Positions 29,848 through 56,897 of a stretch of 64,000 bases of DNA are shown one piece after another. Source of the DNA: Streptomyces rubradiris (GTDB lineage: Bacteria > Actinomycetota > Actinomycetes > Streptomycetales > Streptomycetaceae); contig NZ_BNEA01000015.1 of assembly GCF_016860525.1 (NCBI RefSeq), forward strand, positions 2,976,001 through 3,040,000. The letters are read 5' to 3'. The notes under the pieces are model-generated. The model was not told the origin of the DNA. It was given only the letters and a program-made list of their open reading frames with translations, and did no database searches. The translations under genes were made by a program, and so were the position numbers. How positions within the stretch are numbered: the stretch's first letter is position 1; every line of letters begins with the position of its first letter.

Positions 29848-31062
29848 GTGACCCGTAGCGGTCGTGTGCTGGTGACGGGTGTCGGCGCGATGACGCCGCT
29901 GGGAGCCGATGCGCCGTCGTCGTGGTCGGGGCTGCTGGACGGCAAGTCGGGAGTGCGTTTCCTGGAGGAGGACTGGGCCGCGGACCTGCCCGTGCACGTC
30001 GCGGCCGGGCTCACGGTGGACCCGGCCTCCCTGCTTCCGAGGACCGAGGCCAGGAAGCTGGACCGCGGAGAGCAGGTCGCCGTCCTCACTGCGCGCGAAG
30101 CCTGGAAGGACGCCGGTGCCCCGGGGGTCGAGCCGGAACGGTTCGCCGTCGTCATCGGTACGGGGACCGGTGGTGTGCTCACCACACTGGGGCAGGACGA
30201 CGTCTTCGAACACGCCGGGGCTCGCCGGCTGTCACCGTTCGCGGTCCCCATGCTGATGCCCAACGGGCCGGCCGCCTGGGTGAGCATGGACCTGGGCGCG
30301 AAGGGAGGCGCCAGGACTCCGGTCAGTGCCTGTGCGTCCGGAGCCGAGGCCCTCTCCCTGGGGCAGGACCTGATCCGCAGCGGGCGGGCGGACGTGGTCG
30401 TCGCCGGTGGGGTGGAGGCATGCCTGCACCCCTTCACCCTCGCGGCGTTCGCCCAGATGAAGGCCCTGTCCACACAGTCCACCGACCCGGAGACCGTGTC
30501 CCGCCCGTTCGACGTCGGGCGGTCCGGGTTCGTCATGGGCGAGGGCGCGGGGATGATGGTGCTCGAACGCGCCGAGTTCGCCCGGGCCCGTGGCGCGCGT
30601 GCCTACGGCACGCTGGCCGGCAGCGCCGTGAGTTCGAGCGCGCACCACATCACGGCCTCCGACGCGGAGGGCCAGGCCTTCGCCATGGAACTGGCGCTGC
30701 GCGACGCCGGCCTGGCCCCGGCGGACATCGGAGTCGTACACGCCCACGCCACCTCGACGGAGTCCGGTGACCTGGCGGAGGCCGAGGCGATCGGCCGCGT
30801 GATCGGCAGCCACGCCGCGGTGACAGCGACGAAGTCGATGACCGGCCACATGATGGGCGCGTCCGGAGCGGTGGGCGCCATGGCCGCTCTGTTCGCGCTC
30901 CGAGACGGCACGGTGCCGGCCACGCGTAACCTGGACGCGCTCGACCCGCGCGTGGACCTCGATGTGGTGCGCGGTGAGCGGCGCACCGGCCGGTGGTCCG
31001 CCGCCCTGGCCAACTCGTTCGGGTTCGGCGGACACAACGTCAGTCTCGTCTTCACGACGTGA
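29848..31062 (+). CDS. FabF-type beta-ketoacyl-ACP synthase, candidate self-resistance copy 1
   Basis: 404 residues from GTG 29848, AAGGAGG 5 bases upstream. All KASII residues are present: the nucleophile in PVSACASGAEALSLG, the first His in VHAHATSTESGDLAE, the second in TKSMTGHMMGASG, and NSFGFGGHNVSL at the C-terminus. KASII elongates fatty acids and is the target of thiotetronate antibiotics; duplicated FabF genes are known self-resistance determinants in such clusters. This copy is transcribed alone, convergent to the NRPS gene and ended by a hairpin. It is closely similar along its length to FabF copy 2 (44054-45259). Supply of chain-elongation activity to the PKS is an alternative role. 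Confidence 0.85.
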   Translation: MTRSGRVLVTGVGAMTPLGADAPSSWSGLLDGKSGVRFLEEDWAADLPVHVAAGLTVDPASLLPRTEARKLDRGEQVAVLTAREAWKDAGAPGVEPERFAVVIGTGTGGVLTTLGQDDVFEHAGARRLSPFAVPMLMPNGPAAWVSMDLGAKGGARTPVSACASGAEALSLGQDLIRSGRADVVVAGGVEACLHPFTLAAFAQMKALSTQSTDPETVSRPFDVGRSGFVMGEGAGMMVLERAEFARARGARAYGTLAGSAVSSSAHHITASDAEGQAFAMELALRDAGLAPADIGVVHAHATSTESGDLAEAEAIGRVIGSHAAVTATKSMTGHMMGASGAVGAMAALFALRDGTVPATRNLDALDPRVDLDVVRGERRTGRWSAALANSFGFGGHNVSLVFTT

Positions 31063-31081
31063 CGACGTGACACCGACCGCA

Positions 31082-31106
31082 GACCGGCCTGGTCGTCAGG
31101 CCGGTC
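31082..31106. terminator. Hairpin between convergent FabF copy 1 and NRPS genes
   Basis: GACCGGCCTG (31082-31091) and CAGGCCGGTC (31097-31106) pair perfectly around GTCGT. It lies between two converging stop codons and should end both transcripts. Confidence 0.75.
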
Positions 31107-31126
31107 ACGGCATCACGCGTTCTGTC

Positions 31127-33808
31127 TCAGCGGTTCTCCTGGACATCGCTCAGGGCCTTGGCCACGGCGTCGACGTTCGGCTTCTGCACGATCGTGTAGT
31201 GGTCACCGGCCACCGTCACCTGCCGGAAGCGGCCCTGGCACAGCTGCCGCCAGCCCTCGACCACCTCAGGGGCCGCTCCGGACTCCGCTCGCACGAAGAG
31301 GACCGGGCCGTCGAACCCGGTCGGCCGGTAGCGGTACAGGGCCTGGGCGTTGCGCGCGAAGCGGCGGTACACCTTCTGGAACTCGGGCCGGCCCAGGTCC
31401 GCGGAGAGCACTCCGGCCGCACCCAGCGCGCCGTACAGCTCGTCGGGTGTGGTGACCGGAGCCGACGGCCGCCAAGGCACGCCGGCCGTTCCCGCGAGGT
31501 CCTTGCCCAGCCACAGCAGCAGTTCGCCGTCGGTCGACGGGGCCCGCCGCAGCTCCTCCGGGCCCTCCAGGACGTCGATGGCGGCCACGGAGTCGACGGC
31601 GTACCCGAGCCCGCGAAGCTCCCTGGCCGTCTCCAGAGCGAGCAGGCCGCCCATCGACCAGCCGCCGAGCCGGAACCGTTCCCCCGGCACGGTCCGCGTG
31701 ATGGCCTTCGCATACGCGGCGGCGAGCCCGGTCAGCGTGGCGTCCTCGGTTCCGGAGTCATCCGACTGCACGGCGTAGAACGGCTGGTCCTCCCCCAGGC
31801 TGCGCGCCAGGTCCGAATAGCACAGGACGCCACCTCCCACCGGGTGGAGGAACACCAGGGGGACCGCGCTTCCCGTGGTGCGCAGCGGGATCACCAGCGG
31901 TTCGGACAGGTCACCGTCGGACCGGGACTCCCGGACGCGGAGCGCCAGCGCGCGTACGGTCGGGGCGGAGAAGAGCGTCGACACGGGCAGCGTGACGCCT
32001 GCCTCCCGCCTCAGGACAGACATCATCCGCACCGCTTGCAGCGAGTCGCCGCCGAGTTCGAAGAAGTTGTCCAGGACGGACAGGGCGGGCGCTTCGAAGA
32101 AGCTCCGCCAGACGGACAGGAGGAGGTGTTCTTCCGCGGTGGCGGGGAGAGCGTCCTCCTCGGCCACGGCGGCCTCCCCGGGCAGCTGGGCGAGCGCCGC
32201 CCGGTCCACCTTTCCGTTCCTGGTCAGCGGCAGCTCGTCCCGCACCACGAGGTGGGCCGGAACCATGTACGGGGGGAGGAACTCGCCGACGGCCCGCCTG
32301 ATGTCCCCACCGGTCAGCTCGGAGCCGGCGTCCAGGACGACGTGCGCGACCAGCTTCACCCTGCCCCGGTCACCCGGCGCGGTCACGACCGCCGCCGCGA
32401 CACCGTCGCAGCGCATCAGCGCGGCTTCCACATCGCCCAGCTCGATGCGGTAGCCACCCACCTTCACCTGCATGTCCTCGCGGCCGAGGAACTCGACTTC
32501 ACCGCTGGGCAGCAGCCGTCCCCAGTCGCCCGTGCGGTAGATCCGCTCGCCGGTCACCGGTGAGGTGACGAAGCTCCGGTCGGTGCGCTCCTCGTCCCCG
32601 AGGTAGCCCCGGGCGAGACCGGCGCCGGCGATGCAGATCTCGCCGGACACCCACGGTGGACGCGGCCGCAGGAGCCGGTCCGCGACGAAGACACGTTGGT
32701 TCCGCATGGACGTGCCGTAGGGGATGGACGGCAGGGAGGCGTCGGCCGGGGTGATGCGGTGCCAGATCGACCAGATCGACGCCTCCGTCGCGCCCCCGAG
32801 GCTCCACAGCTCGGCCTGCGGGAAGAAGCGCCATATCTCCGTCGGCAACGTGACCGGTATCCAGTCGCCGCTCATGAGGACGGTCCGCAGCGGCGGCAGG
32901 CCGTCGCGGGCCGGGGACGCGAGGTCCGTGGCCGAGGTCAGGTACTCGCACAGCATGGCCATCAGCGCGGGCACGCTGTTCCAGACCGTGACGCCCGACT
33001 CGTTCATCAGCTCCAGCCAGCGGGCCGGTTCGCGGGAGTCCTCCGGTGCGGGGAGCACGACGGCGCCACCGACGGAGAGCGGGCCGAAGATGTCGTACAC
33101 CGACAGGTCGAAGGTGAGCGCCGACAGGCCCAGGACCCGGTCGTCGGCCGTCAGCGACATCTGCTCGTTGACGTCCCTGACCGTGTTGACGGCCGCACCG
33201 TGCTCGATCACCACGCCCTTGGGCACACCGGTGGAACCGGACGTGTAGATCACGTACGCGACGTCGCCGGGTTTCACCGCGACGTCCGGCGCCGCGGCCG
33301 GGGCTGTGCCGGAGTCCGGCACCGTGATGTCCAGCACCTCGACTCCGTCGGGCCAGTCCACGGCGTCCCGCACGGACGGCTGGGTGAGCACGGTGCTGAT
33401 GCCGGCCGCCGCCAGGACGTCACGCAGACGCCGGGCCGGCCAGTGCGGGTCGAGGGGCACGTACGCGGCACCGGCCCGCACCACACCCAGGCACCCGACG
33501 ACCTGCTCCCATCCCTTCTCCATCACGACACCGACGAGGTCCCCCGGGCCGTTGCCGCCCTGCGCCAGCCGATGGGCGACACCTGCCGACTCCCGAGCGG
33601 CCTCGGCGTAGCTGAGCCGACGGTCGGGGGTGATGACGGCCACCGCGTCGGGGGTGCGAGCCGCCTGGGCGACGAACCGGTCGTGGAGCAGCGCGTCCGC
33701 GCCGGGCTCGGTGGGCCGGTCCGCGTCCCCCGGCCACGCGCCGGGGCCCAGGACGGGGTCGCGGGCCCAGACGGGTTCCAGCCAGGCGGTGTCAGCGAGC
33801 GAGTTCAC
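31127..33808 (-). CDS. NRPS protein: A(Cys)-PCP-TE
   Basis: 893 residues from ATG 33808. Adenylation domain ~40-540: YVIYTSGSTGVPKG (A3), YRTGDWGR (A7-like), NGKVDR (A10, Lys533). Aligned to PheA, the pocket residues read D234 L235 Y238 N277 L311 S313 L337 I345 W346 K533, the cysteine code. PCP ~555-625 with FFELGGDSL (Ser589). Thioesterase ~645-893 with GGWSMGG (Ser718) and GDHY near residue 870. It would load Cys for the Cy domain of the preceding PKS and release the product; in thiotetronates this Cys is the sulfur source. The start overlaps the PKS 3' end (stop 33792), so the two are coupled. Last gene of the operon. Confidence 0.9.
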   Translation of the reverse strand: MNSLADTAWLEPVWARDPVLGPGAWPGDADRPTEPGADALLHDRFVAQAARTPDAVAVITPDRRLSYAEAARESAGVAHRLAQGGNGPGDLVGVVMEKGWEQVVGCLGVVRAGAAYVPLDPHWPARRLRDVLAAAGISTVLTQPSVRDAVDWPDGVEVLDITVPDSGTAPAAAPDVAVKPGDVAYVIYTSGSTGVPKGVVIEHGAAVNTVRDVNEQMSLTADDRVLGLSALTFDLSVYDIFGPLSVGGAVVLPAPEDSREPARWLELMNESGVTVWNSVPALMAMLCEYLTSATDLASPARDGLPPLRTVLMSGDWIPVTLPTEIWRFFPQAELWSLGGATEASIWSIWHRITPADASLPSIPYGTSMRNQRVFVADRLLRPRPPWVSGEICIAGAGLARGYLGDEERTDRSFVTSPVTGERIYRTGDWGRLLPSGEVEFLGREDMQVKVGGYRIELGDVEAALMRCDGVAAAVVTAPGDRGRVKLVAHVVLDAGSELTGGDIRRAVGEFLPPYMVPAHLVVRDELPLTRNGKVDRAALAQLPGEAAVAEEDALPATAEEHLLLSVWRSFFEAPALSVLDNFFELGGDSLQAVRMMSVLRREAGVTLPVSTLFSAPTVRALALRVRESRSDGDLSEPLVIPLRTTGSAVPLVFLHPVGGGVLCYSDLARSLGEDQPFYAVQSDDSGTEDATLTGLAAAYAKAITRTVPGERFRLGGWSMGGLLALETARELRGLGYAVDSVAAIDVLEGPEELRRAPSTDGELLLWLGKDLAGTAGVPWRPSAPVTTPDELYGALGAAGVLSADLGRPEFQKVYRRFARNAQALYRYRPTGFDGPVLFVRAESGAAPEVVEGWRQLCQGRFRQVTVAGDHYTIVQKPNVDAVAKALSDVQENR

Positions 33809-36800
33809 GAATCAGCCTTTCGTACGCGGAGAACATCGAATCGACGACTCCCTCGGGGAACACGTCCTCCAGCACGTCCCAGTTGAGGATCAGGCCACCG
33901 TTCTCCTCGAACGCCGTGTGGTCCAGGATCACCTGGGGGGTGCGGACGCCGCTCCACACCGGCACGCCGGTCTCGCCCATGCGGCACAGCGAACCCACCG
34001 GGCCGGTCGTCGTACCGTCCGCCGCGCTGACCCCGAGGGCACTGTTGAAAACCACCGGCATGCGGGCCCGGCCGGCACCCGCGTCCCGCCGGCCCAGGTC
34101 CCGCAGGACGTCGAGGCCGGTGTACGCGGTGTGCTCCATGTCGAGCAGCAGCTGCCGTTGGATCTGCCGCGCGGAGTCCCGGAACGGGGATGCCGGGTCG
34201 ACGTGGACTTCGAGCAGGCTGGTGGCGGAGAAGTTGCCCACCACCCCGGTGGTGTCCAGCCCGGGCACCGAACCGCGGTGGGATACCAGGCAGTTGACGG
34301 TGAAGTCGGGCGTCTTCGACCAAGCTGCCAGCACGTGGCAGTAGGCCGCGAGCACCGCGCAGGACGGGGTGAGGCCCGCGGCGGCGGCGTTGCGCTTGAA
34401 CTGCTCCCACTCCGGTGCGTCGACGCGGAGGAACCGGTTGCTGAAGACCGGCACCGGCACGTCGGAGAGCCGGCACGCGAGCGGCAGTTCCGGTGCCGCC
34501 GGCAGGGTGGCGAGGCGCTCACGCCAGTACGACCTGCTCGGCTCGGCATCCGGGGACGCGGCGTGGGCACGCATCGTCCGGACGTACTCCTCGTACCGGG
34601 CAGCGGGCTCGGCCGGCTCAGTGTCCGGGTCGCGGTAGAGCTCGGCCCACTCCTTGAAGAGCAGGGCGGTGCTGCCGCCGTCGGATATGAGGACGTCGAG
34701 TCCGAAGTGCAGACGGGTCACGGCCTCGGTCACACGCGTCGCCCGGACCAGGAACAGGGGCCAGCTGGTGACATCGAAGTCGTGGGCCCTCAGCTCGTCG
34801 TGGATCTCGGTGAGCCGCTGCCCGCGTTCCTCATCGGTCAGCCGGGTGAGGTCCTCGACGGGGATCGACACCCTGGGGACGGTTCCGAGGACCCGCTGGG
34901 TGCCCGCTTCGGGGTCGAAGACGGCCCGCAGCATTGGATGCCGTCGCACGAGCCTGTCGAGGGCTTGCTCGGCAGCCGTGACGTCGAAGCCGGTCAGGTC
35001 GACCTCCACGTACAGGTAGGTGGAGACGTTGCCGAGTTCGAAGTCACCCGCGCGTCCCGCCAGGTACGCCTCCTGCAACTGGGTCAGTGGGAAGGGCTCC
35101 GAGTCCGGCAGAGCGGGCCGGGAGTCTTCTCGCGTGGGGCGCCTGCGTTCCGCCGTGGCGCGCGGACGGGGGGCGGCGAAGGTCTGCGGCGGTGCTTCCG
35201 CCGCGGCCGGTGCGTCCGGTGCGTCCGGTGCGTCCGGTGCGCTGGCTCCCCCGGTGGCCTCGTCCTCCTCGAACAGGTCCAGGATGTGGGAGACAAGGGC
35301 ATCCGGCGTCGGGTGGTCGAAGACGACGGTGGCACCCAGCCGCGTGCCGAGCTTCCGGCCGAGACGGACCCGCAGCTCCATCGACGTGAGGGAGTCGAAG
35401 CCCATCTCGTAGAAGGATTTCTGGGCGTCCACCCGCCGTGCCTCGGTACCGAGCAACTCGGCCACGCCCTCCTTGACGAGGGAGAGCAGCCCGGCGGCAC
35501 GCTGGTCGTGCGAGGCATCGGGCGACCTCAGCAGGTCCACCACCGAGGCGGTTTCCGGCGCTGCCGCGTCCTGCCCGGCCTCCGCGCCCGGCTGCGGCCG
35601 CGGCGCCGTGCCGGGCAGGGGCGGACGCACTTCCGGAGCGCTGGGCGCGCCGGCCACCGGGGTCCCGGCGACGGCTCCGCTCGTCTCCCCCACCAGGCGG
35701 GAAAACAGGAACGGTCCGGCGGTACGGCCGTGTTCGGTCGCGTCGCTCACGGCCAGGCGCGCCGCGACCACGGCGGGCGCGTCACCGGCCAGCGCCGCGT
35801 CGAACAGGGCGAGTCCCTCGTCCACCTCGAACGGGGCCACGCCGTTACGCCGCAGGCGCAGCAGGTCGCCCTCGTCCAGGTGCCCCGTCATGCCGGTCGC
35901 CTCGGCCCAGAGCCCCCAGGCGACCGAGTTGGCCGGCCGGCCCTGGGCCCGTCGCCACTGGGCGAACTGGTCCAGGAAGGCGTTCGCACCGGCGTAGTTG
36001 GCCTGTCCAGGGCCGCCCAGGACGCCGTAGAGGGAGGAGAAGACCGTGAAGAAGCGCAGCTGGTCCTCGCGCGTCGCCTCGTCGACGTTCAGTGCCGAGT
36101 CCACCTTGCTCGCCAGGACAGTGTGCAGCTGGTCCGGCGTCATGTTGGTGACGATCGCGTCGTCGAGCAGGCCGGCCGCGTGGACGACGCCCACCAGGGG
36201 CCGTTCGGCGCGCAGCCGGGCGAGTGCCCCGCGCACGCTGTCCGCCTGGGCCACATCGACGCCGAGGACGGCGACGGACGCTCCGAGGCCGTGCAGCTCG
36301 GCGGTGAACTCGGCGATTCCGGGGGACTGCTGTCCGCTGCGGCTGAGCAGCGCCAGGGAGCGCACTCCCCACCGTGTCACCAGGTGGCGGGCCAGCGCAC
36401 GACCGATCGTGCCGGTGCCGCCCGTGATCACGACGGTGCCGTCGCCGAGGTCCGGGGTCCGGCCCGCGGAGGCGGCAAGCGGCCACAGGTACGGCAGCAG
36501 CACGCGGTCCGCGCGGACGGCCAGCTGCGCCTCGGACCGCGTCAGTGCCCGCAGCAGGGTCTGGGGCGTGTCGGCGGCCGACGCGTCGACGTCGATGACG
36601 CGGACGCGGCCGGGGTTCTCGGTCTGCGCGGACCGCACCATTCCCCACAGCGCGCCCTGACCGAGGTCGTGGACGGTGTCGCCGGTGACGGCTATGGCGT
36701 TCTGCGTGACGAGGGTGAGCTGGGCCCGGCCGTCCAGGTCCTCGGCGCGCAGCCACTGTTGGATCGTCTCCAGCGCCCAGGCCGCGGAGTCGTGGGCCTG

Positions 36801-43979: not shown

Positions 43980-44053
43980 GTCATTCTTTCGCTGTGATAT
44001 CAGACGGTCGTGAACGGGGCGGGGGCAAGCTGGTGACGAGGTGCGGAAATCGG

Positions 44054-45259
44054 TCAGACGCGGCCGAAGACCAGGGAGACGTTGTGTCCGCCGAAACCGA
44101 AGGAATTGGCGAGCGCGGTTTCCAGCCGGCCGCTGCGCGGTGCATCCCTGACGACGTCGAGTTCCACCTCGGGATCCACCTCGTCCAGATTGCGGATGGC
44201 CGGCACCGTGCCGTCGCGCAGCGCCAGGATCGCGGCGGCCGCGCCCATCGCCCCGGACGCGCCCAGCATGTGCCCGGTCATGGATTTCGTCGCCGTCACC
44301 ACCGGATGCGTTCCGATGGCCTGAGCGATCGCCCTGGCCTCTGCCAGATCACCCTGGGGTGTGGAGGTGGCATGGGCGTGCACATGGTTCACGTCACCGG
44401 GTCCGACGCCGGCATCGCGCAGGGACGCGGTCATGGCCCGGACCTGCCCGGGCACGTCGGACGCCGTGATGTGGGCGGCGCTCGAGCTGACACCCGCCCC
44501 GAGCACCGCGGCATGCGCGCGCGCCCCGCGAGCACGGGCGTGCTCCGCCCGTTCCAGCACGACGATCGTTCCGCCCTCGGCGAGGACGAACCCGTGGCGC
44601 CGGGCGTCGAAGGGGCGGCTGGCGTGGGCCGGATCGTCGTTCGCGGTCGACAGGGCCATCATCTGCGCGAAGCCGGTCAGCGGCAGCGGCAGGACGCTGG
44701 CCTCCACGCCACCCGCCACCACCACGTCGGCGCGGCCCGCGCGGATCAGGTCCAGCCCGAGCGCGATCGCCTCCGCGCCGGACGCGCAGGCACTGACCGG
44801 GGCGTGGGCGCCGGCCTGCGCGCCCAGGTCCATGCTGATCCAGGCCGCGGGCCCGTTCGCCATCAGCATGGGCACGGTGTGCGGGGAGACCCGGCGCGGA
44901 CCCTTGGCGGCCAGCAGGTCGTTCTGGGCGAGGAGCGAGGTGACACCCCCGATGCCCGTGCCCACGGCCACCGCGAGGCGCTCCGGGTCGACGTCGGGTG
45001 AGCCGGCGTCGCGCCAGGCCTCCCGCGCGGCGACCAGCCCCGTCTGTTCGGCCCGGTCCAGGCGGCGGGCCTCGGTGCGGTCAAGGGAGTCAGCGGGGTC
45101 CGCCGTGAGGCGCGCGGCGATACGCACGGGGAGCCCTTCGGCCCATTTCTCGTCGATGTACGCGACCCCGTTGGCACCGGCCTGCATCGCGGCCCAGGTG
45201 CTCGCCATGCCAGCGCCGATCGGCGTCAGGGCGCCCAGGCCCGTTACCCATACGTCCAC
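44054..45259 (-). CDS. FabF-type beta-ketoacyl-ACP synthase, candidate self-resistance copy 2
   Basis: 401 residues from GTG 45259 (VDVWVTGLGALTPIG) with GAGGAA ~10 bases upstream; the long upstream extension of the frame is not family-like. Active-site set: PVSACASGAEAIALG (Cys), VHAHATSTPQGDLAE (His), TKSMTGHMLGASG (His), NSFGFGGHNVSLVF. It closely parallels FabF copy 1 (29848-31062), sharing for example RTEAR.LDR.EQ, VPMLM.NGPAAW.SMDLGA and LIR.GRADVVVAGGVEA. It is probably the first gene of the PKS operon (75 bases before the P450). A resistant KASII inside an operon for an antibiotic that inhibits KASII is the expected arrangement; a chain-elongating role is the alternative. Confidence 0.85.
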   Translation of the reverse strand: MDVWVTGLGALTPIGAGMASTWAAMQAGANGVAYIDEKWAEGLPVRIAARLTADPADSLDRTEARRLDRAEQTGLVAAREAWRDAGSPDVDPERLAVAVGTGIGGVTSLLAQNDLLAAKGPRRVSPHTVPMLMANGPAAWISMDLGAQAGAHAPVSACASGAEAIALGLDLIRAGRADVVVAGGVEASVLPLPLTGFAQMMALSTANDDPAHASRPFDARRHGFVLAEGGTIVVLERAEHARARGARAHAAVLGAGVSSSAAHITASDVPGQVRAMTASLRDAGVGPGDVNHVHAHATSTPQGDLAEARAIAQAIGTHPVVTATKSMTGHMLGASGAMGAAAAILALRDGTVPAIRNLDEVDPEVELDVVRDAPRSGRLETALANSFGFGGHNVSLVFGRV

Positions 45260-45514: not shown

Positions 45515-45736
45515 TTTGCCGGGTGGTTGGCCATGGTTCCGCATAAGGGTGCGCAGTCCGGCCATGCGGCGGGCGCGGTCACCTCGTTCCGGTCCGTGGT
45601 CCCAAGTCGCTCTGCCGAGGCGGAAGGCGGCCACGGCGGCCGGAAGCGGGAGAGAGCGCAGCATGATTTGATCTATCCGCGCACGACGTGTGGATGGCCG
45701 AAAACCCGGCCGTCCAGGAGGGAGCTGAGGTCCGCC

Positions 45737-48316: not shown

Positions 48317-50063
48317 CCCGTTCCCGGGGCCCGCGTATCCCCCGTCCCGACTTGTGTCCCAGGAAGCCCTGCTCGACCAACTCCTCTACGAGTACGGGGG
48401 GTTCGTACCCGGATTTCGGGAACTCCGTGTCCAGGCAGCGCAGGATGGCGAGGGAGACGTCCAACCCGATGCTGTCGAGCAACGTGAAGGGGCCCATGGG
48501 GTAACCGAAGCCGCGTTCCATCGCTCCGTCGACGTCCGCGGCGTCCACCGCGTGCTCGTCCAGCAGCCGCACCGCGTCGGCGAGGTACGGGAAGAGCAGG
48601 TGGTTGACGATGAACCCGGCCCGGTCGGGGCATGCCACGGCGACCTTGCCGAGCGTGCCGCAGAACGCGTGCGCGACATCGACGGCACGCTCTCCCGTGG
48701 CCGGGGTGCGGACCAGTTCCACCAGCTTCATCACCGGCGCGGGATTGAAGAAGTGCAGGCCGAGCGTGTCCTCCGGCCGTCCCGCCGGTTCCGTGCAGGC
48801 GGCGACCGGCAGGCTGGACGTCGTCGTGGCGAGCAGCGCGCCGGGCCGGCACACCCTGCCCAGCCGGGCGAAGAGGCTGCGCTTCAGCAGGAGGTCCTCC
48901 GCGACGGCCTCTATCACCAGGTCACAGTCGGCGAGAGCGACCATGTCGTCGGCGGTCGTCAGGCAGGCGCGGGCCTGTGCCTCGCCCGCCGGCGTGACCT
49001 TGCCCCGCCGTACCGCCTTGGCCAGTGACTTCTCGATGAAGGCCAGGGACGCGCTGGCCTTTTGCGGGCTGCGGGCGACCAGCGTGGTCCGGAACCCCGC
49101 CACCGCGCAGGCCTCCGCGATGCCCCGCGCCATCGTGCCGGAGCCGAGCACCCCCACGTGCTCGAGAGGCGCTGCCGGTGAACCGCCGTGGACGCGAGGG
49201 GCGTCCGCTGCGGCGATCCGGCGACCGGTGTCGTCGTAGCGGTAGAAACCCTGGCCGCTCTTCCGGCCGAGCGTGCCGCGGTCGAGCATCGAGCTGAGCA
49301 GCGGGGCCGGCCGGTACCGGGCGTCACCGGTGCGCTCGCACAGCGCGGTGAGGCCGGCGTGCACCTCGTCCACGCCCAGTTCGTCGATGAGCTGCAGGGG
49401 GCCGGACGGCAGTCCGCAGCCGAGCCGCATGGCGGTGTCGATGTCCTGGGCGGCGGCGAAGCCCTGCGCGACCATCACGGCGGCACGGTTGACGAAAGCG
49501 TGGACGAGTCCGGTGGCGAGCCCGCCTGCCTGGACCTCGACGGCGGCGGGTTCGAGGCCGAGAGCCGCCGTGAGTTCCCTCGCCGCGCTGATCGCGTCAT
49601 CTGAGGTCAGCGAGGTGGGCACCACGTCCGCACGGCCCCCCGCCGCAGGCGGCCTGAGCAGGCGCAGACCGACGGTTCGCTCCGGCCGCCGGGACGCGGT
49701 GGCGAGGCGGAACAGCGGCAGCGAGGCGGTCGTCGTGAGGAACACGGTGGTGCCGGCGCAGACCCCGTGCAGCCGGTGCAGCAGAGTGCTCTTGACCGCC
49801 AGGTCCTCGTCCACGGCCTCGATCACGAGGTCGGCCTCGGCCAGGGAGCCGATGTCGGCCGTCAGGGTCGGCGGCGGCCGGTCGAAGGCGCCGCCTTCCC
49901 CGCGCGCCTTGACGCGCCGCTCGACCCTGGCCAGTACGTCGAGGTCGCGGTCCACGCCGACGACCCGACAGCCCGCCTCGCTCAGCAGGCCCAGCAGGGC
50001 CTCTCCGACGGTCCCGAGTCCCACGACTCCGACGACCGTTTCTTCCACCGTCTTGCGGTGCAC
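48288..50063 (-). CDS. Tandem-domain 3-hydroxyacyl-CoA dehydrogenase
   Basis: 591 residues from GTG 50063. Two 3-hydroxyacyl-CoA dehydrogenase units are fused in tandem. The C-terminal unit (~310-591) is canonical: VGVLGSGTMARGIAEACAVA for NAD, LHFFNPAPVMKLVELV with the catalytic His, and DRAGFIVNHLLFPYL. The N-terminal unit (~10-305) keeps the NAD motif VVGVVGLGTVGEALLGLL but has LRLLRPPAAGG in place of HFFNP, so it has lost the catalytic His and may be structural. The likely reaction is acetoacetyl-CoA to 3-hydroxybutyryl-CoA, feeding crotonyl-CoA to the reductase gene 34 bases upstream in the same operon. No crotonase is seen in the cluster. The 3' end overlaps the regulator gene tail-to-tail. 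Confidence 0.85.
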   Translation of the reverse strand: MHRKTVEETVVGVVGLGTVGEALLGLLSEAGCRVVGVDRDLDVLARVERRVKARGEGGAFDRPPPTLTADIGSLAEADLVIEAVDEDLAVKSTLLHRLHGVCAGTTVFLTTTASLPLFRLATASRRPERTVGLRLLRPPAAGGRADVVPTSLTSDDAISAARELTAALGLEPAAVEVQAGGLATGLVHAFVNRAAVMVAQGFAAAQDIDTAMRLGCGLPSGPLQLIDELGVDEVHAGLTALCERTGDARYRPAPLLSSMLDRGTLGRKSGQGFYRYDDTGRRIAAADAPRVHGGSPAAPLEHVGVLGSGTMARGIAEACAVAGFRTTLVARSPQKASASLAFIEKSLAKAVRRGKVTPAGEAQARACLTTADDMVALADCDLVIEAVAEDLLLKRSLFARLGRVCRPGALLATTTSSLPVAACTEPAGRPEDTLGLHFFNPAPVMKLVELVRTPATGERAVDVAHAFCGTLGKVAVACPDRAGFIVNHLLFPYLADAVRLLDEHAVDAADVDGAMERGFGYPMGPFTLLDSIGLDVSLAILRCLDTEFPKSGYEPPVLVEELVEQGFLGHKSGRGIRGPRERVSSGATRNG

Positions 50064-50097
50064 GCTCTTCTTACCTCTCGTGCTGCCGTGTACCAGG

Positions 50098-51432
50098 TCA
50101 GACCCGGAACCGGTTGATGGCGTCGATGTGCCGCGCGCGCATCTCGTGGTCGCGCACGCCCAGGCCCTCCTCGGGGGCGAGGCACAGGACGCCGACCTTG
50201 CCCTGGTGCAGGTTGCGGTGGACGTCGTAGGCCGCCTGGCCGGTGTCCTCAAGGGAGTACGTCTTCGACAGGGTCGGGTGGATCTTGCCCTTGGCGATCA
50301 GGCGGTTGGCCTCGTACGCCTCGCGGTAGTTGGCGAAGTGCGAGCCGATGATCCGCTTCAGGGACATCCACAGGTAGCGGTTGTCGTACTCGTGCATGTA
50401 GCCCGAGGTGGAGGCGCAGGTGGTGATGGTGCCGCCCTTGCGGGTGACGTAGACGGAGGCGCCGAAGGTCTCGCGGCCGGGGTGCTCGAAGACGATGTCG
50501 ATGTCCTCGCCGCCGGTGAGTTCGCGGATGCGCTTGCCGAACCGCTTCCACTCCTTGGGGTCCTGGGTGTGCTCGTCCTTCCAGAACCTGTAGCCCTCGG
50601 CGTTGCGGTCTATGATCAGCTCGGCGCCCATCGAGCGGCAGATCTCCGCCTTCTCCGGGGAGGAGACGACACAGATCGGGTTGGCGCCGCCGGCCAGCGC
50701 GAACTGGGTCGCGTACGAGCCGAGTCCGCCGCTCGCGCCCCAGATCAGGACGTTGTCGCCCTGCTTCATGGCCGCGCCGTTGCGGGACACCAGCTGCCGG
50801 TACGCGGTGGAGTTCACCAGGCCCGGGGCCGCCGCCTCCTCCCAGGTCAGGTGCTTGGGCTTGGGCATCAGCTGGTTGGTCTTCACCAGCGCTATCTCGG
50901 CGAGGCCGCCGAAGTTGGTCTCGAAGCCCCAGATGCGCTGCTCGGGGTCGAGCATCGTGTCGTCGTGGCCGTCGGGCGACTCCAGCTCGACGCTCAGGCA
51001 GTGCGCGACGACCTCGTCGCCGGGCTTCCAGGCGTTGACGCCCGGGCCGGTGCGCAGGACGACGCCGGCCAGGTCGGAGCCGATGACGTGGTACGGCAGG
51101 TCGTGCCGCGCGGTCAGCGGCGAGAGCTTGCCGTAACGCTCCAGGAAGGCGAACGTCGGCACCGGCTCGAAGATCGAGGTCCACACGGAGTTGTAGTTCA
51201 CCGAGGAGGCCATGACGGCCACCAGGGCCTCGCCCGGGCCCAGCTCCGGCACCGGGACGTCCATGACGTGAAGGGATTTCCGTGGATCCTTCACCCGCGA
51301 GTCCACGCCGTCGAACATTCCGACGTCCTCGCGACGGATGACCACGCCCCGATAGCTGTCCGGAAGGGGCAGTGCCGCGTAGTCGCCGGGCGTTGCCGTA
51401 CCGGAGAGGACGGCATCGACTATTTCCTTCAC
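50098..51432 (-). CDS. ccr: Crotonyl-CoA carboxylase/reductase
   Basis: 444 residues from GTG 51432 with GGAGG upstream; ATG 51474 lacks a site. A medium-chain dehydrogenase with the CCR hallmarks: SSVNYNSVWTSIFEPVPTF, GSDLAGVVLRTGPGVNAWKP, LIWGASGGLGSYATQFALAG for NADPH, and FEHPGRETFGASVYVTRKGG. CCR reductively carboxylates crotonyl-CoA to ethylmalonyl-CoA, an extender unit for PKS. With the hydroxyacyl-CoA dehydrogenase just downstream it forms a supply pair. This points to an ethyl branch in the product, as in thiotetromycin-type thiotetronates. Divergent from the thioesterase-to-amidotransferase operon across a 257-base region with C5/G5 motifs. Confidence 0.93.
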   Translation of the reverse strand: MKEIVDAVLSGTATPGDYAALPLPDSYRGVVIRREDVGMFDGVDSRVKDPRKSLHVMDVPVPELGPGEALVAVMASSVNYNSVWTSIFEPVPTFAFLERYGKLSPLTARHDLPYHVIGSDLAGVVLRTGPGVNAWKPGDEVVAHCLSVELESPDGHDDTMLDPEQRIWGFETNFGGLAEIALVKTNQLMPKPKHLTWEEAAAPGLVNSTAYRQLVSRNGAAMKQGDNVLIWGASGGLGSYATQFALAGGANPICVVSSPEKAEICRSMGAELIIDRNAEGYRFWKDEHTQDPKEWKRFGKRIRELTGGEDIDIVFEHPGRETFGASVYVTRKGGTITTCASTSGYMHEYDNRYLWMSLKRIIGSHFANYREAYEANRLIAKGKIHPTLSKTYSLEDTGQAAYDVHRNLHQGKVGVLCLAPEEGLGVRDHEMRARHIDAINRFRV

Positions 51433-51521
51433 GTGGGTTTCCTCCCGAGGCTGGCACGACGGTGGATATTGCACCCGTATATGACCGGGTCGACCCTAGA
51501 GAAAGCCCGGCTCCCGGGGCA

Positions 51522-51590: not shown

Positions 51591-51689
51591 GTTGGCCCCT
51601 CACTCGCTCATGCATCATGGGGGACGCAGGCCGCCGCCCGATCCCGGCCGAATGCTTGCCCGACACAGTTCTTCTTGGAGAGGGAAAGA

Positions 51690-52448
51690 GTGGTTGACAG
51701 CCCCGTCGGCGCCGCCTCCTGGGTACGCCGGTTCCACCCTTCGTCCGAAGCAGAATTCCAGCTTCTCTGTTTCCCGCACTCGGGCGGATCCGCCAGCTTC
51801 TTCTTTCCCTTCTCCCGGGACCTGTCGCCGGCCATGGACGTCTGGGCCGTGCAGTACCCAGGCCGGCAGGACCGTCGCGCGGAGCCGAACATCCCGCACA
51901 TACACGAGCTCGCCGATCACATCGCCGAGAGCGTCGGCCCGCAACTCGACCGGCCATACGCGCTGTTCGGGCACAGCATGGGCGCCACCCTCGCCTACGA
52001 AGTCGCCCTGCGACTGCAGGAGGCGGGCCAGGAGCCCGAGACGCTCTTCGTATCCGGGCGTCCGGCCCCGCACCGTAACGTCGACACGGGACTGCACCGG
52101 CTCTCGGACAGCGAGATCGTCGATGACATACGCGCCCTGGACGGCACAGGTTCAGAAGTGTTCGGCGACGAGGAAGTACTCCGGATCATTCTTCCGGCGA
52201 TACGCAGCGACTATCACGCCGCGGAGACCTATCAGTATGTCGCCGGCCCCGTCCTGAACTGCCCACTCCGCGCCTTCACCGGCCTGTCCGATCCCCGGGT
52301 GGAGGTGAGCGAACTCCATCACTGGAGCCGTCACACCACCCAGTCGTTCCGGCTCGACGTGTTCTCCGGTGGCCATTTCTACCTCCTGGAAAACCACGAC
52401 GCGATCGTAAAGGAAATCCAGGGCGCCCTGCTCCCCGTATCACCCTGA
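51690..52448 (+). CDS. Type II (editing) thioesterase
   Basis: 252 residues from GTG 51690 (GGAGAGGG just upstream). Alpha/beta hydrolase of the GrsT/TEII type: LLCFPHSGGSASFFFPF at the oxyanion strand, YPGRQDR, ALFGHSMGATLAYEVAL with the catalytic Ser, and FSGGHFYLLE with the catalytic His. TEIIs remove stalled or misprimed acyl groups from carrier proteins. Here it would serve the KSQ/PKS/NRPS carriers, including an ACP primed by decarboxylation. It starts the plus-strand operon that continues with the KASIII gene 13 bases downstream. Confidence 0.92.
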   Translation: MVDSPVGAASWVRRFHPSSEAEFQLLCFPHSGGSASFFFPFSRDLSPAMDVWAVQYPGRQDRRAEPNIPHIHELADHIAESVGPQLDRPYALFGHSMGATLAYEVALRLQEAGQEPETLFVSGRPAPHRNVDTGLHRLSDSEIVDDIRALDGTGSEVFGDEEVLRIILPAIRSDYHAAETYQYVAGPVLNCPLRAFTGLSDPRVEVSELHHWSRHTTQSFRLDVFSGGHFYLLENHDAIVKEIQGALLPVSP

Positions 52449-52461
52449 AGGACTGGACGTA

Positions 52462-53475
52462 GTGCCCGCTTATTCATCCGGACCGCTGCGCACGGGAGTA
52501 TGGGGTACCGGTTCTTATCTGCCCGATCACGTGGTCCGCAATCAGGACATCGCCGCGTCGACGGGGGTGAGCCCCGAATGGATCGAGCGCAAGACCGGGA
52601 TTATCGAACGGCGTTACGCGGCCGCCCACCAAGCGACGTCCGACCTCGCCGCGGAGGCGGGCCGACGGGCACTGGAGGACGCCGGGCTCACGGCGGAGGA
52701 GCTGGGCTGGGTCATCGTCGCCACCACCACTCCCGACCAGCCCCAGCCACCCACCGCCGCCATCGTCCAGCAGCGTCTGGGCGCGGGCCGTGCCGCGAGC
52801 TTCGACGTCAACGCCGTCTGCGCGGGTTTCGTCGTGGCGTTGGACGTCGCGGCGCGCATGCTCGCCGGTGACGGGGCGAGCCGCGGACCCGCCCTGGTGA
52901 TCGGCAGCGAGGTGTACTCACGCGTCATCGACCCCACCGACCGGCGTACCGCGCCGCTGTTCGGGGACGGAGCGGGGGCCGTGGTCCTCGGCCCGGTCCC
53001 CGCGCAGCGGGGCGTCCTGGGCAGTCACTCCGCCACGGACAGCCGCTTGCTCGACCTCATCGGCATCTCCGCCGGCGGCAGCCGGACTCCGCCGTCCGCC
53101 GAGACCCTCGCCAGGGGTGAGCACTTCTTCCGCATGCGCGGGCGTGAAGTGCGTGCGTACGTGATGCGCGAGCTGCCCCGCGCGGTCCAGGCCCTGCTGC
53201 GAGATCTCTCGGTCCCACCCGACCTGGTGCGGCACTTCATCCCCCACCAGGCCAACGGCGCGATGCTCGGGGAGGTCCTGGAGAACCTGGGCCTGCCCCG
53301 TGCGCGGGCTCACCTGCCCGTGGCCCGCCACGGGAACACGGGCGCCGCTTCCGTCCCGCTCGCACTCGACCACGCGCACCGCTCCGGAGAGCTGTCCGAC
53401 GGAGACCTGGTCCTGCTGGCCGGGTTCGGAGGCGGCATGACAACGAGTGCCGCTCTGCTCGCCTGGGGCCTCTGA
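52462..53475 (+). CDS. Beta-ketoacyl-ACP synthase III (FabH)-like enzyme
   Basis: 337 residues from GTG 52462, GAAGGA upstream. KASIII triad: VNAVCAGFVVAL (Cys), HFIPHQANGAM (His), ARHGNTGAASVPLAL (Asn). WIERKTGIIERRYA is the FabH substrate-site pattern. In this cluster it may condense acetyl-CoA with a malonyl unit to acetoacetyl-CoA for the dehydrogenase/CCR route to ethylmalonyl-CoA, or act in priming; the sequence does not decide. A resistant FabH is a third possibility, since thiotetronates also inhibit KASIII weakly. Between the thioesterase (13 bases) and a P450 (81 bases, with a repeat hairpin). Confidence 0.88.
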   Translation: MPAYSSGPLRTGVWGTGSYLPDHVVRNQDIAASTGVSPEWIERKTGIIERRYAAAHQATSDLAAEAGRRALEDAGLTAEELGWVIVATTTPDQPQPPTAAIVQQRLGAGRAASFDVNAVCAGFVVALDVAARMLAGDGASRGPALVIGSEVYSRVIDPTDRRTAPLFGDGAGAVVLGPVPAQRGVLGSHSATDSRLLDLIGISAGGSRTPPSAETLARGEHFFRMRGREVRAYVMRELPRAVQALLRDLSVPPDLVRHFIPHQANGAMLGEVLENLGLPRARAHLPVARHGNTGAASVPLALDHAHRSGELSDGDLVLLAGFGGGMTTSAALLAWGL

Positions 53476-53480
53476 CGGAT

Positions 53481-53534
53481 CCCACCCATGTCGCGGACGT
53501 CCCACCCATGTCGCGGACGGCTGACCGTCCGCGA
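53481..53534 (+). repeat. 20-bp tandem duplication plus stem-loop between KASIII and P450 genes
   Basis: CCCACCCATGTCGCGGACG occurs at 53481-53499 and 53501-53519. The second copy forms TCGCGGACGG/CCGTCCGCGA, a perfect 10-bp hairpin with loop CTGA (53511-53534). It lies inside an operon, so it may act as an attenuator or mRNA stabiliser. Confidence 0.75.
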
Positions 53535-53556
53535 GCCGAATTCCAGGAGTAACGTG

Positions 53557-54774
53557 ATGTTGTCCAAGCCCGTCTCTCCGCTGCCCGCCGAACCCCCGCG
53601 CGGCTGCCCGTTCTCTCCTCCTCCGCAGTACGCGGTGCTCCGCGTCGAGGAACCGGTCAGCCGTGTCTCACTCCCGGACGGAAGCTGGGCCTGGCTGATC
53701 ACCCGGTACGAGGACGTCCGGGCCGTCCTCTCCGACCCGCGGTTCAGTTCGGACTCGGCCGCCCCGGGTTTTCCGCGCAGCGGCATGGTCACCGCCGGGG
53801 AAGCGGGCAGCCTGATCCGGACCGATCCTCCTGAGCACACCCGCCGCCGGCGGATGCTCACGCCCCATGTCACGGTCAAGAGCGTGTCGGCCCTGCGCCC
53901 CCGCATCCAGGAGATCACCGACGAACTGTGCGATGCGATGGAGGCCGAGCGGGAGGCAGCGGGCTCCCCCGGGTACGTGGACCTCGTCAGGTCACTGGCC
54001 CTGCCGCTTCCGTCGTCGGTCATCAGTCTGCTGCTCGGGGTACCGGACGAGGACCACGACGTCTTCCAGAGCATCACCGCCACCGTGATGTCTCGGGTGA
54101 ACGCCGAGGAAGAGCGCACCGCCGCCCGGGCGCGACTGCTCACCTACCTCCGCGAGCTGGTCGCCGGCAAGGAACGGAACCCGGGCGACGACATCCTGAG
54201 CGGACTGATCCACGACAGGATGGGAGCGGGCGAACTCACCCACGACGAGGTGGTGGGTACCGCCGCTCTCCTGCTGGTGGCCGGACACGAGACCACCGCC
54301 AACATGATCGGCCTCGGCGCGCTGACCCTGCTGCGGTACCCGCACGCGGCCGAGGAGCTGCGCAAGGACCCGTCGCTCATGCCTGGAGCCGTCGAGGAGC
54401 TACTCCGTTTCCACAGCGTCACCCGGAGCGGGCCCCGTCGGGCGGCGACCGCCGACGTCGAGGTGGGCGGTCAGGTCATCAAGGCGGGAGAGGGCATCAT
54501 CTGCGCGCTCGCCTCGGCGAACCGTGACCCCGAGGTGTTCCCGGATCCCGACGGGTTCGATCCGCGGCGCGCCAACTCCCAGCGTCACGTCGCCTTCGGC
54601 TACGGCGTCCACCAGTGCCTCGGCCAGGCGTTGGCACGAGCCGAACTCCAGATCTCTTTGAACACCCTCCTGCGCCGCTTCCCGGAGCTGCGCCTCGCTG
54701 TGGAGTTCGAAGACGTTCCGTTCCGCAGCGACATGCTGGTCTACGGCTGCCACGCATTGCCCGTGACGTGGTAG
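53557..54774 (+). CDS. Cytochrome P450, candidate side-chain oxidase
   Basis: 405 residues from ATG 53557 with AGGAG 7 bases upstream; GTG 53554 is nearer and less likely. Motifs: LLVAGHETTANMIGL (I-helix), EELLRFHSV with a following Arg (ExxR region), and FGYGVHQCLGQALARAE (heme Cys). A bacterial CYP105/107-like soluble enzyme. It is directly followed by a ferredoxin gene and an asparagine-synthase-like gene. In thiotetroamide biosynthesis a P450 oxidises an unreactive ethyl group to a carboxylate, which an amidotransferase converts to a primary amide; this trio matches that pairing. The second cluster P450 (42705-43979) then serves ring formation. Confidence 0.85.
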   Translation: MLSKPVSPLPAEPPRGCPFSPPPQYAVLRVEEPVSRVSLPDGSWAWLITRYEDVRAVLSDPRFSSDSAAPGFPRSGMVTAGEAGSLIRTDPPEHTRRRRMLTPHVTVKSVSALRPRIQEITDELCDAMEAEREAAGSPGYVDLVRSLALPLPSSVISLLLGVPDEDHDVFQSITATVMSRVNAEEERTAARARLLTYLRELVAGKERNPGDDILSGLIHDRMGAGELTHDEVVGTAALLLVAGHETTANMIGLGALTLLRYPHAAEELRKDPSLMPGAVEELLRFHSVTRSGPRRAATADVEVGGQVIKAGEGIICALASANRDPEVFPDPDGFDPRRANSQRHVAFGYGVHQCLGQALARAELQISLNTLLRRFPELRLAVEFEDVPFRSDMLVYGCHALPVTW

Positions 54775-54813
54775 CGACGCCCCATTCCCGCTGTCTGATC
54801 AGGAGAAACACGC

Positions 54814-55002
54814 GTGAAGATCACTTTTGACGAGGAGAAGTGCTGTGGCGCCGGGCAGTGTGTGCTCGTTGCCCCCGAGGTGTTCGACCAGGACGACGAC
54901 GGGATCGTCGTTCTCCTGAACCCGTCACCCTCCGACGACCTGCGCGAAGCGGTCGAGGAGGCCGCGGCCGTCTGCCCGGCGAATGTCATCCACGTGGAGT
55001 GA
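54814..55002 (+). CDS. [3Fe-4S] ferredoxin for P450
   Basis: 62 residues from GTG 54814. EEKCCGAGQCVLVAPEVFDQ gives the Cys spacing of bacterial P450 ferredoxins, with the last Cys in AAAVCPANVI. Three cluster cysteines remain (the second position of a [4Fe-4S] set is Ala/Gly), consistent with a [3Fe-4S] cluster. It transfers electrons from a ferredoxin reductase to P450s. It is 39 bases downstream of the P450 and may serve both cluster P450s, since no other ferredoxin gene is present. No dedicated reductase is seen; a housekeeping one is presumably used. Confidence 0.93.
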   Translation: MKITFDEEKCCGAGQCVLVAPEVFDQDDDGIVVLLNPSPSDDLREAVEEAAAVCPANVIHVE

Positions 55003-55061
55003 TTCCACGGCCGGATCAGCGGATGTGATGCAACCAACGTCGAGAAAAGGGTTTGATCGCC

Positions 55062-56897
55062 ATGTGCGGTATTGCCGGCTGGGTTTCGTACCGTCGGGAT
55101 CTGACGCAGCAGTCGCAGATCCTCGACGCGATGACCGAGACCATGGCCTGCCGCGGTCCCGACGCACGAGACACGTGGGCGGACCGGCACGCCGCCCTTG
55201 GCCACCGGCGGCTCGCCGTCATCGACCTGCCCGGCGGCGCGCAGCCGATGCGGGTGGAGACCGGGGACGGCGACGTGGTGATGGTGTATTCGGGAGAGAC
55301 CTACAACTACCCCGAACTGCGCGCCGAACTCCGCCGCCGCGGGCACCGTTTCACCACCGACTCGGACACCGAGGTGGTGCTCCGCGGGTACCTGGAGTGG
55401 GGTGAGGCGATCGGTGAGCACCTGAACGGCATGTTCGCATTCGCCATCTGGGACGCGCGCACCGAGAAGCTCGTCATGGTCCGGGACAGGCTGGGTGTCA
55501 AGCCCTTCTACTACTACGAGACCGAGGACGGCGCCCTCTTCGGCTCCGAGCCCAAGGCGATCCTGGCGAACCCGCTCTGCTCCGCCATCGTCGGCCTGGA
55601 CGGGCTGCGGGAGATGTTCTCCTTCGCCAAGACCCCGGGGCACGCGATCTGGGAGGGCATGCGCGAGCTGCGCCCCGGTCACGTCGCCGTGACCGACGTC
55701 AACGGGCTGCGGGAGTACGCCTACTGGCGCCTCGAAGCCGACGAGCACACGGACGACCAGCAGGCCACCGTCGCGCACGTCAGGGAGCTGCTGGAGGACA
55801 TCATCTCCCGGCAGCTCGTCGCGGACGTCCCCCGGTGCACGCTGCTCTCCGGCGGTCTCGACTCCTCCGTCATCACCGCCCTCGCGGCCCGGCAGCTCAG
55901 GAAGCACGGGGAGACGGTCCGCACCTTCGCCGTGGACTTCCCGGACCAGGAGAAGAACTTCAAGGCGATTGACCTCGCCCCCACCCGGGACACCCCGTAC
56001 GCGCACGCGGTGGCCGAGCACGTGGGGAGCGACCACCGGGACATCATGCTCCACGGCAGCGCGCTTGCCGACCCGGAGGTACGGCGGGCGGCCGTCGGCG
56101 CACGGGACTTCCCGAACGGGATCGGCGACCGGGACAACTCGCTCCACCTCCTCTTCAAGGCCGTCCGCGAACACTCGACGGTGGCGCTCTCTGGGGAGTC
56201 GGCGGACGAGTTGTTCGGCGGCTACCCATGGTTCCACGAGGACAGGTTCCGCTACGCGGACACCTTCCCCTGGCTCGCGGGCAAGGGCTCCCTCTTCGAA
56301 GCGGGCGGCCTGCTGGACGACGACCTGGCACGCCGGCTCGACCTGGGAACCTACGTCCGCGACCACTACCTCAGCGCCCTGAAAGAGGTCCCGCTCAAGG
56401 AAGGCGAGACCGGCCTGGAGAAGCGGATGCGTCAGGTCTGCTATCTGAACGTGACGCGGAAGATGCAGCCCCTGCTCGACCGCAAGGACCGGATGAGCAT
56501 GGCGGCCGGGCTCGAGGTGCGTGTCCCGTTCTGCGACCACCGGCTCGTGCAGTACGTGTTCAACACCCCGTGGTCGCTGAAGGCGTTCGACGGCAGGGAG
56601 AAGAGCCTGCTGCGCGCCGCGGCGCGCGACCTGCTGCCACCGTCCGTGGCCGACCGTAAGAAGAGCGGCTACCCCAGCAGCTTCGACCCGCAGTACCTCA
56701 AGGCGGTCCAGTCCCAGGTCGCCGACCTCCTCCACCGCGACCACCCGGCACTGGCACTGTGCAGCCGGGACCGCCTGAGCGAGGCGATGAGGGCGGACCA
56801 GGACACCATCAGCCTCCAGCAGCGGACGGTACTGGAACGCTCGCTCGACCTGGCGACGTGGCTCGACCTACGGAACCCGACGCTGAAACTCGGCTGA
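55062..56897 (+). CDS. Asparagine-synthase (AsnB)-like glutamine amidotransferase
   Basis: 611 residues from ATG 55062; this start puts Cys at position 2 (MCGIAGW), the N-terminal nucleophile of class II glutaminases, whereas the upstream TTG would not. N-terminal glutaminase domain ~1-200; C-terminal synthetase domain with the ATP PP-loop LLSGGLDSSVITALA and GESADELFGGYPW. AsnB enzymes activate a carboxylate as an acyl-AMP and aminate it with ammonia from Gln. In this P450-ferredoxin operon it most likely turns a side-chain carboxylate into a primary amide, as in thiotetroamide. It is the last cluster gene and ends at a strong terminator. Confidence 0.88.
   Translation: MCGIAGWVSYRRDLTQQSQILDAMTETMACRGPDARDTWADRHAALGHRRLAVIDLPGGAQPMRVETGDGDVVMVYSGETYNYPELRAELRRRGHRFTTDSDTEVVLRGYLEWGEAIGEHLNGMFAFAIWDARTEKLVMVRDRLGVKPFYYYETEDGALFGSEPKAILANPLCSAIVGLDGLREMFSFAKTPGHAIWEGMRELRPGHVAVTDVNGLREYAYWRLEADEHTDDQQATVAHVRELLEDIISRQLVADVPRCTLLSGGLDSSVITALAARQLRKHGETVRTFAVDFPDQEKNFKAIDLAPTRDTPYAHAVAEHVGSDHRDIMLHGSALADPEVRRAAVGARDFPNGIGDRDNSLHLLFKAVREHSTVALSGESADELFGGYPWFHEDRFRYADTFPWLAGKGSLFEAGGLLDDDLARRLDLGTYVRDHYLSALKEVPLKEGETGLEKRMRQVCYLNVTRKMQPLLDRKDRMSMAAGLEVRVPFCDHRLVQYVFNTPWSLKAFDGREKSLLRAAARDLLPPSVADRKKSGYPSSFDPQYLKAVQSQVADLLHRDHPALALCSRDRLSEAMRADQDTISLQQRTVLERSLDLATWLDLRNPTLKLG

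Follow-up and report, generated by a model that had tools for sequence, protein, structure and literature searches.

Which product is encoded by the biosynthetic locus at positions 29848-56897 of a 64,000-nucleotide stretch of the Streptomyces rubradiris genome? This stretch, hereafter the window, occupies G000:C15:2976001-3040000 of a genome with 9.05 Mb and 22 contigs, and a first-pass annotation made from its letters had proposed an amide-bearing thiotetronate. Our analysis upholds that proposal: we put at roughly 90% the probability that the locus is a complete cluster for a compound of the Tü 3010/thiotetroamide type, as its gene set and limits fit those of the tue and stu clusters in the available text of PMC5518548 and as it combines a CASH acyltransferase, both P450 types and an AsnB-like gene. 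It would add a divergent producer candidate to a class of antibiotics of continuing interest, which inhibit FabF and so block fatty-acid synthesis. The class, its chemistry and most of its logic are already known, and the cluster appears to be a divergent member of the family; a retained thioesterase, a Ser/Pro difference in FabF and a mosaic of end genes are additions of specialist interest.

The locus comprises 14 genes, all of them open frames with strong Pfam matches (Table 1). Every part listed by the first-pass annotation is present: a KSQ-ACP loading protein, a KS-AT-DH-KR-ACP-Cy polyketide synthase (PKS), an A-PCP-TE nonribosomal peptide synthetase (NRPS), two P450s, a ferredoxin and two FabF-type ketosynthases in intact, Pfam-backed frames, together with a profile-backed crotonyl-CoA carboxylase/reductase (CCR; TIGR01751, 633 bits against a cut-off of 379), a hydroxyacyl-CoA dehydrogenase, a KASIII, a type II thioesterase (TEII) and an AsnB-like amidotransferase (TIGR01536, 494 bits against a cut-off of 267). 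Three details were amended: the KSQ gene begins at a GTG overlapping the P450 stop or at a neighboring ATG, not at the open reading frame limit of 43164; the second FabF gene probably starts near 45259; and the dehydrogenase consists of two domains in tandem. The D1 P450, KSQ-ACP, PKS and A-PCP-TE genes overlap at successive ends and starts, an arrangement that resembles a translationally coupled operon. The cluster could be unexpressed or no longer functional in S. rubradiris, and PMC5518548 describes those of S. cattleya, S. afghaniensis and S. incarnatus as possibly cryptic, yet we consider an inactive cluster here quite unlikely because the 14 frames contain no internal stop and the catalytic motifs are intact.

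We compared the KSQ, CASH, Cy, KR, ACP, A-domain and TE motifs across seven clusters: that of the window, those of S. afghaniensis 772, Streptomyces sp. DvalAA-43 and Streptomyces sp. sk2.1, and those of the genomes G197, G665 and G778. The loading protein has KS and ACP domains and lacks an AT, and its DTGQSSS motif identifies a KSQ. A single PKS module, KS-AT-DH-KR-ACP, whose iterative use is predicted, ends in a Cy-like domain with the DxxxxDxxS signature; the motifs read DTACSS in the KS, GHSQG and CASH in the AT, LDD and YxxxN in the KR, GFDSL in the ACP and DVLISDGGS in the Cy domain. The P450 motifs are likewise intact, and the D1 P450 is 67.8-76% identical to the D1 gene of the six other clusters. 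Read by eye from conserved motif anchors and the usual position numbering rather than from a structure alignment, the A domain yields the code DLYNLSLIWK. This code is given in the available passage of PMC12283262 on cysteine-activating domains, and by this motif reading the domain, to which a PCP is attached, is probably of the cysteine type. The AT motif is CASH in six of the seven clusters and YASH in G778; CASH is tied to the ethylmalonyl ATs of Tü 3010 (stated for tue) and YASH to the thiolactomycin AT (PMC5518548).

These assignments allow a pathway to be proposed. The KSQ-ACP protein would supply an acetyl starter, which the iterative module would lengthen in three rounds, using methylmalonyl and ethylmalonyl units in a presumed order, CCR and the 3-hydroxybutyryl-CoA dehydrogenase (HBDH) furnishing ethylmalonyl-CoA. 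The thiolactone would be built by the D1 P450, the cysteine-loading A-PCP, the Cy domain and a sulfur relay consisting of a cysteine desulfurase and a thiouridylase encoded elsewhere. The D2 P450, served by the ferredoxin, would then oxidize the C-5 ethyl group toward the carboxylic acid to be amidated by the AsnB-like enzyme, and the FabF copies, perhaps with FabH, may protect the producer. Deletion of the orthologues of B, D1, D2 or the desulfurase gene is reported to abolish the product, and deletion of H to reduce it to 1% (PMC5518548). The genome contains one thiouridylase above the cut-off (G000:C15:2555067-2556125), and a class V aminotransferase resembling cysteine desulfurases is encoded in the same orientation at a distance of about 0.9 kb, which places the pair at G000:C15 2.555-2.558 Mb. 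Since thiouridylase and desulfurase genes occur in most Streptomyces (PMC5518548), this locus lends weak support.

By published description, the window shares with the Tü 3010 clusters stu (S. thiolactonus), tue (S. olivaceus Tü 3010) and ssu (Streptomyces sp. MG11) a common set of genes, the limits from E to F2, a separate A-PCP gene, two P450s, CCR, HBDH, a discrete TE, FabH and two FabF copies (in stu and ssu), sulfur genes located elsewhere and the CASH motif (stated for tue); the interval from stuE to stuF2 suffices for heterologous production (PMC5518548). In S. afghaniensis, DvalAA-43 and sk2.1, the D2 P450 (76-78% identity), the ferredoxin and AsnB (90-91%) also adjoin one another, the S. 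afghaniensis ferredoxin match being split into two pieces in different frames. These three genes are on a separate contig from the PKS in S. afghaniensis and DvalAA-43, and a single contig of sk2.1 spans from part of the KSQ gene to AsnB. The available text of PMC9231227 names S. afghaniensis NRRL 5621 as a source of thiotetroamide. Among 392 Streptomyces genomes, 18 (the window's own included) have an AsnB match at E ≤ 1e-270, and the closest besides the own gene is 76% identical.

The other three clusters mark the limits of this set. G197 and G665, both Streptomyces, resemble the window in their CASH motif, in having a TE on C plus a discrete TEII, and in CCR and HBDH, but differ in that neither the D2 P450 nor AsnB was found in the 40 kb fetched around either cluster; elsewhere in G197 there are only distant ones (47% and 62%). 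Their pathways are predicted to end at a thiotetromycin-like ethyl compound. G778, from another genus of the family and of the thiolactomycin (tlm) type, has in common with the window the KSQ-ACP, iterative PKS-Cy, A-PCP-TE, D1 P450 and FabF, whereas its AT carries the methylmalonyl motif YASH, TEII, HBDH, LuxR, FabH and AsnB are unmatched in the 40 kb fetched, and CCR has a match of only 53%; B and C, fused in the published tlm cluster, are separate in G778. A D2-like P450 (63.5%) and a ferredoxin lie about 8 kb beyond the G778 NRPS gene, with no AsnB match there. A P450 elsewhere in the S. rubradiris genome (G000:C7:580780-582024) is 63% identical to D2, which weakens the meaning of the D2-like P450 of G778.

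Kinship was drawn from genome collections. Scanning genome contigs with the PKS returned four loci, three of which are full-length relatives at 71-73% identity (S. afghaniensis 772, DvalAA-43 and sk2.1) and the fourth, in Pseudofrankia, matches residues 1-1774 only, in pieces of 36-46%. In the plasmid collection, 1360 records match the PKS; in each of them a single location covers less than 80% of it, and all stay below 60% identity; the best 10 of these 1360 align at 42-46% over the KS-ACP part and leave the Cy domain unmatched. The D1 P450 has matches at E ≤ 1e-90 in 2 of 392 Streptomyces genomes (own counted), at E ≤ 1e-100 in 4 of 394 genomes of a family draw (own, G197, G778 and G665) and at E ≤ 1e-70 in 52 of 394 genomes of a class draw, where the own gene (100%) and that of G665 (70%) stand apart from the others at about 42% or less; the three draws overlap and are not independent. 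Each enzyme class occurs in many clusters, and an unrelated PKS-NRPS hybrid might merely resemble a thiotetronate cluster. We regard this as extremely improbable because the core genes, their order and full-length PKS similarity are common to the six other clusters, and because D1-type matches lie at 70-76% against about 42% for the next P450s of the class draw. The first-pass annotation had raised the case of best PKS matches in unrelated clusters; instead, the full-length relatives are thiotetronate-type clusters. In trees of seven rows each, midpoint-rooted for drawing only, the window joins the three amide clusters, apart from G197, G665 and G778, with support of 100/100 for the PKS and 99/98 for the A-PCP.

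The window differs from stu, tue and ssu, described with a discrete TEII instead, in that its A-PCP protein ends in a TE, which retains GWSMGG (Ser718), Asp745 and GDHY (His870). Besides the window, G197, G665 and G778 carry a TE domain on C. S. afghaniensis 772, DvalAA-43 and sk2.1 do not: their C proteins stop shortly after the PCP, and no TE trace was detected at E 0.01 in the fetched loci (the DvalAA-43 contig runs out about 0.3 kb past C). TEII was found in all compared loci except G778. The coexistence of TE and TEII is an architectural departure from the published clusters that lies outside the subtype-defining chemistry, and a cluster with TE, TEII and amide genes is an intermediate. 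Parsimony suggests that the TE was lost after the split from the window lineage. It has been proposed that alanyl-PCP is cleared by the TE in thiolactomycin biosynthesis or by TEII in that of Tü 3010 (PMC5518548), freeing the carrier during sulfur transfer; this proposal can be tested on the graded set that the clusters provide (TE only; TE plus TEII; TEII only).

The product could also be a thiotetronate other than Tü 3010, such as thiotetromycin, an intermediate at the acid or alcohol stage, or an analogue built on a different extender pattern: the PKS differs by 27-29% from those of the nearest amide clusters, the NRPS retains a TE that these lack, and one AT must accept two kinds of extender, which the motif does not predict. 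We nonetheless consider this unlikely, given that CASH, D2, the ferredoxin and AsnB are all there, that the P450 and KS/ACP motifs are intact and that AsnB is 90-91% identical to its counterparts in three genomes with D2 and AsnB, including a genome of the species given as the thiotetroamide source. Several observations do weigh against assignment to the Tü 3010 type. The retained TE is absent from the published Tü 3010 clusters as described in the available text of PMC5518548, so that the window, with both thioesterases, departs from their pattern of TEII in place of a C-terminal TE; the DH motif is HRVRQTPLLP instead of HxxxGxxxxP, yet the Gly is also missing in the other six clusters; the D1 P450 tree did not resolve the positions of the window and G197; and the amidase gene reported between the stu sulfur-locus genes was not found here, a 97-aa frame in the gap being outside the scan.

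Self-resistance may reside in the two FabF-type genes of the window. According to the available part of a review, the isoprenoid of thiolactomycin points toward a pocket with the KasA Asp272-Pro280 loop. Counting by eye in an alignment to chain 2wgd_A, we found Ser at the Pro280 position in all eight cluster FabF sequences compared (three of F_p1 and five of the second copy; Ser271 in the window F_p1). The genome has seven FabF-like matches, two being the cluster copies; three of the other five have Pro (L092, L093 and L094), including L092, the FabF of the fatty-acid synthase operon, which adjoins acpP and fabH. Non-cluster FabF proteins of relatives (L102 and L104-L107) have Pro in five out of five. 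Pro is not universal among the non-cluster ketosynthases of this genome, and we rejected that generalization: the distant L095 and L096 (33-37%) have Leu. The Ser-for-Pro difference may confer resistance. The second FabF is a remnant in the sk2.1 (L012/L063) and DvalAA-43 (L010/L062) clusters, which retain D2, AsnB and the PKS; of FabH, sk2.1 has a remnant and the DvalAA-43 loci show no match. DvalAA-43 has no F_p1 above 54%, within the same contig limit past C.

The S. afghaniensis 772 cluster (L009 and L061, on two contigs) has the gene order of the window from F_p1 to AsnB and occupies the same chromosomal interval, with ychF on one side and a GntR-type gene on the other. Contig adjacency is inferred from the LuxR gene end, which both contigs share by protein match with no exact DNA overlap found. 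Genes between the ends are 63-89% identical at the protein level, and C lacks the TE. The cluster is inverted relative to ychF, which follows F_p1 there and AsnB in the window.

We measured identity at fourfold-degenerate sites of residues shared between orthologues, pooling 11 of the 12 interior genes for S. afghaniensis (the ferredoxin, with 15 sites, was left out) and eight for sk2.1; DvalAA-43 was not pooled. In the gene-by-gene listing, rows that were non-orthologous or, in the draft genomes, broken or misread were dropped (F_p1, F_KS2, LuxR and CCR of DvalAA-43; F_p1, F_KS2, FabH and CCR of sk2.1; FabH of G197). Between the window and S. afghaniensis, 1803 of 3434 interior sites agree (0.525) and 523 of 771 in four flanking chromosomal genes (0.678), against 219 of 265 in F_p1 (0.826; p=5e-23 versus the interior, 3e-6 versus the flanks) and 272 of 317 in AsnB (0.858; p=2e-33 and 3e-10, respectively), the p-values assuming independent sites and being indicative only. 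The comparison with sk2.1 gives 1482/2768 (0.535) for the interior, 204/258 (0.791) for F_p1 and 263/316 (0.832) for AsnB, and AsnB fourfold identity to DvalAA-43 is 0.854. In the control pair, S. afghaniensis and sk2.1, the values are 0.800 for the interior, 0.798 for F_p1 (p=0.93) and 0.854 for AsnB (p=0.02). CCR is somewhat higher than the other interior genes (0.705, expectation 0.564). F_p1 is 94.5% identical to that of S. afghaniensis (L009) and 91% to that of sk2.1, which lies about 20.5 kb from C, apparently on the same contig (57,392 bases). The F_p1 block of high identity runs from 29713 to 31067 against S. afghaniensis and from 29715 to 31067 against sk2.1, taking in about 130 bp upstream; close to the AsnB start, nucleotide identity jumps from about 0.65 to 0.89-0.97, and it drops again past the AsnB stop. 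Because both steps fall at gene edges, gene-by-gene histories are not separable from crossovers inside genes.

F_p1 and AsnB thus appear to have a different and more recent history than the interior, pointing to recombination. Codon constraint is disfavored, since F_p1 between S. afghaniensis and sk2.1 is no higher than the interior and AsnB only slightly so, and since the chance expectation for these genes is no higher than for others; simple vertical descent is disfavored because the end genes (0.83 and 0.86) exceed the four flanking genes (0.68). In the AsnB tree the window falls outside the three others with support of 90/93, below the level starred for DNA; the protein tree does not resolve this placement. 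We see an even chance that the cluster is a recombinant, in which an interior of about 24 kb (ferredoxin/D2 through the TE-bearing NRPS) would come from an older, TE-retaining lineage, both end genes would be of recent common origin with those of the S. afghaniensis/sk2.1 clusters, and Ser for Pro would mark the resistant target copy. Two related clusters exchanging DNA through one double crossover between their ends would account for both genes at once. If so, the assembly line would be replaceable, with self-resistance and the finishing step retained or traded as units at its edges, and the mosaic and the Ser-for-Pro difference offer concrete tests of self-resistance traveling with its pathway. 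In the accessible literature, PMC5518548 is the one primary study of these clusters that came up, and the words "horizontal" and "recombination" are absent from its available text.

Table 1. Annotated features of the locus, in window coordinates.
Feature	Position	Strand	Basis or remark
FabF-type ketosynthase F_p1 (stuF2-like), putative self-resistance copy	29848..31062	+	Pfam
A-PCP-TE NRPS (stuC-like plus TE)	31127..33808	-	Pfam, motif reading
C-terminal thioesterase domain of NRPS	31148..31861	-	Pfam, motifs
Iterative PKS KS-AT(CASH)-DH-KR-ACP-Cy (stuB-like)	33792..40604	-	Pfam, motifs
Cy domain, DVLISDGGS (DxxxxDxxS)	34065..34994	-	Pfam, motif
KSQ-ACP loading protein (stuA-like), DTGQSSS; start GTG 42708 or ATG 42702	40597..42708	-	
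Cytochrome P450, D1 (ring-forming) type	42705..43979	-	Pfam, cluster comparison
Second FabF-type ketosynthase (stuF1-like)	44054..45259	-	Pfam; start probably near 45259
AAA-ATPase/LuxR-type regulator	45533..48316	+	Pfam
Tandem HBDH (stuI-like)	48288..50063	-	profile match
CCR (stuH-like)	50098..51474	-	TIGR01751
Discrete TEII (stuT-like), GHSMG motif	51675..52448	+	
KASIII (FabH-like)	52462..53475	+	profile match
Cytochrome P450, D2 (side-chain-oxidizing) type	53488..54774	+	76-78% to three amide-type clusters
4Fe-4S ferredoxin, probable electron donor for P450s	54814..55002	+	
AsnB-like glutamine-dependent amidotransferase (stuE-like)	55062..56897	+	TIGR01536; 90-91% to three amide-type clusters

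The AAA/LuxR regulator has matches in the L009, L010, G197, G665 and sk2.1 loci. Beyond AsnB, the region with ychF, ROK, lytB and the exonuclease VII large subunit (57156-63958) is kept in S. afghaniensis and in three clusterless relatives (G003, G007 and G009). The latter share only this ychF side with the window, as no far-side frame was matched within 20 kb in each, a pattern like that at an insertion hot spot. On the other side of the cluster, 23480-29097 encodes a GMC oxidoreductase, a ferritin-like protein (PF12902) and two xylose-isomerase-like TIM-barrel proteins in a row, which are unmatched in the other thiotetronate loci fetched. Farther out, the window contains a gene for a serpin-family protein (9316-10587) and two for ricin-type lectin domain proteins (13838-15676 and 18569-20092), one with FG-GAP repeats and one with NHL repeats.

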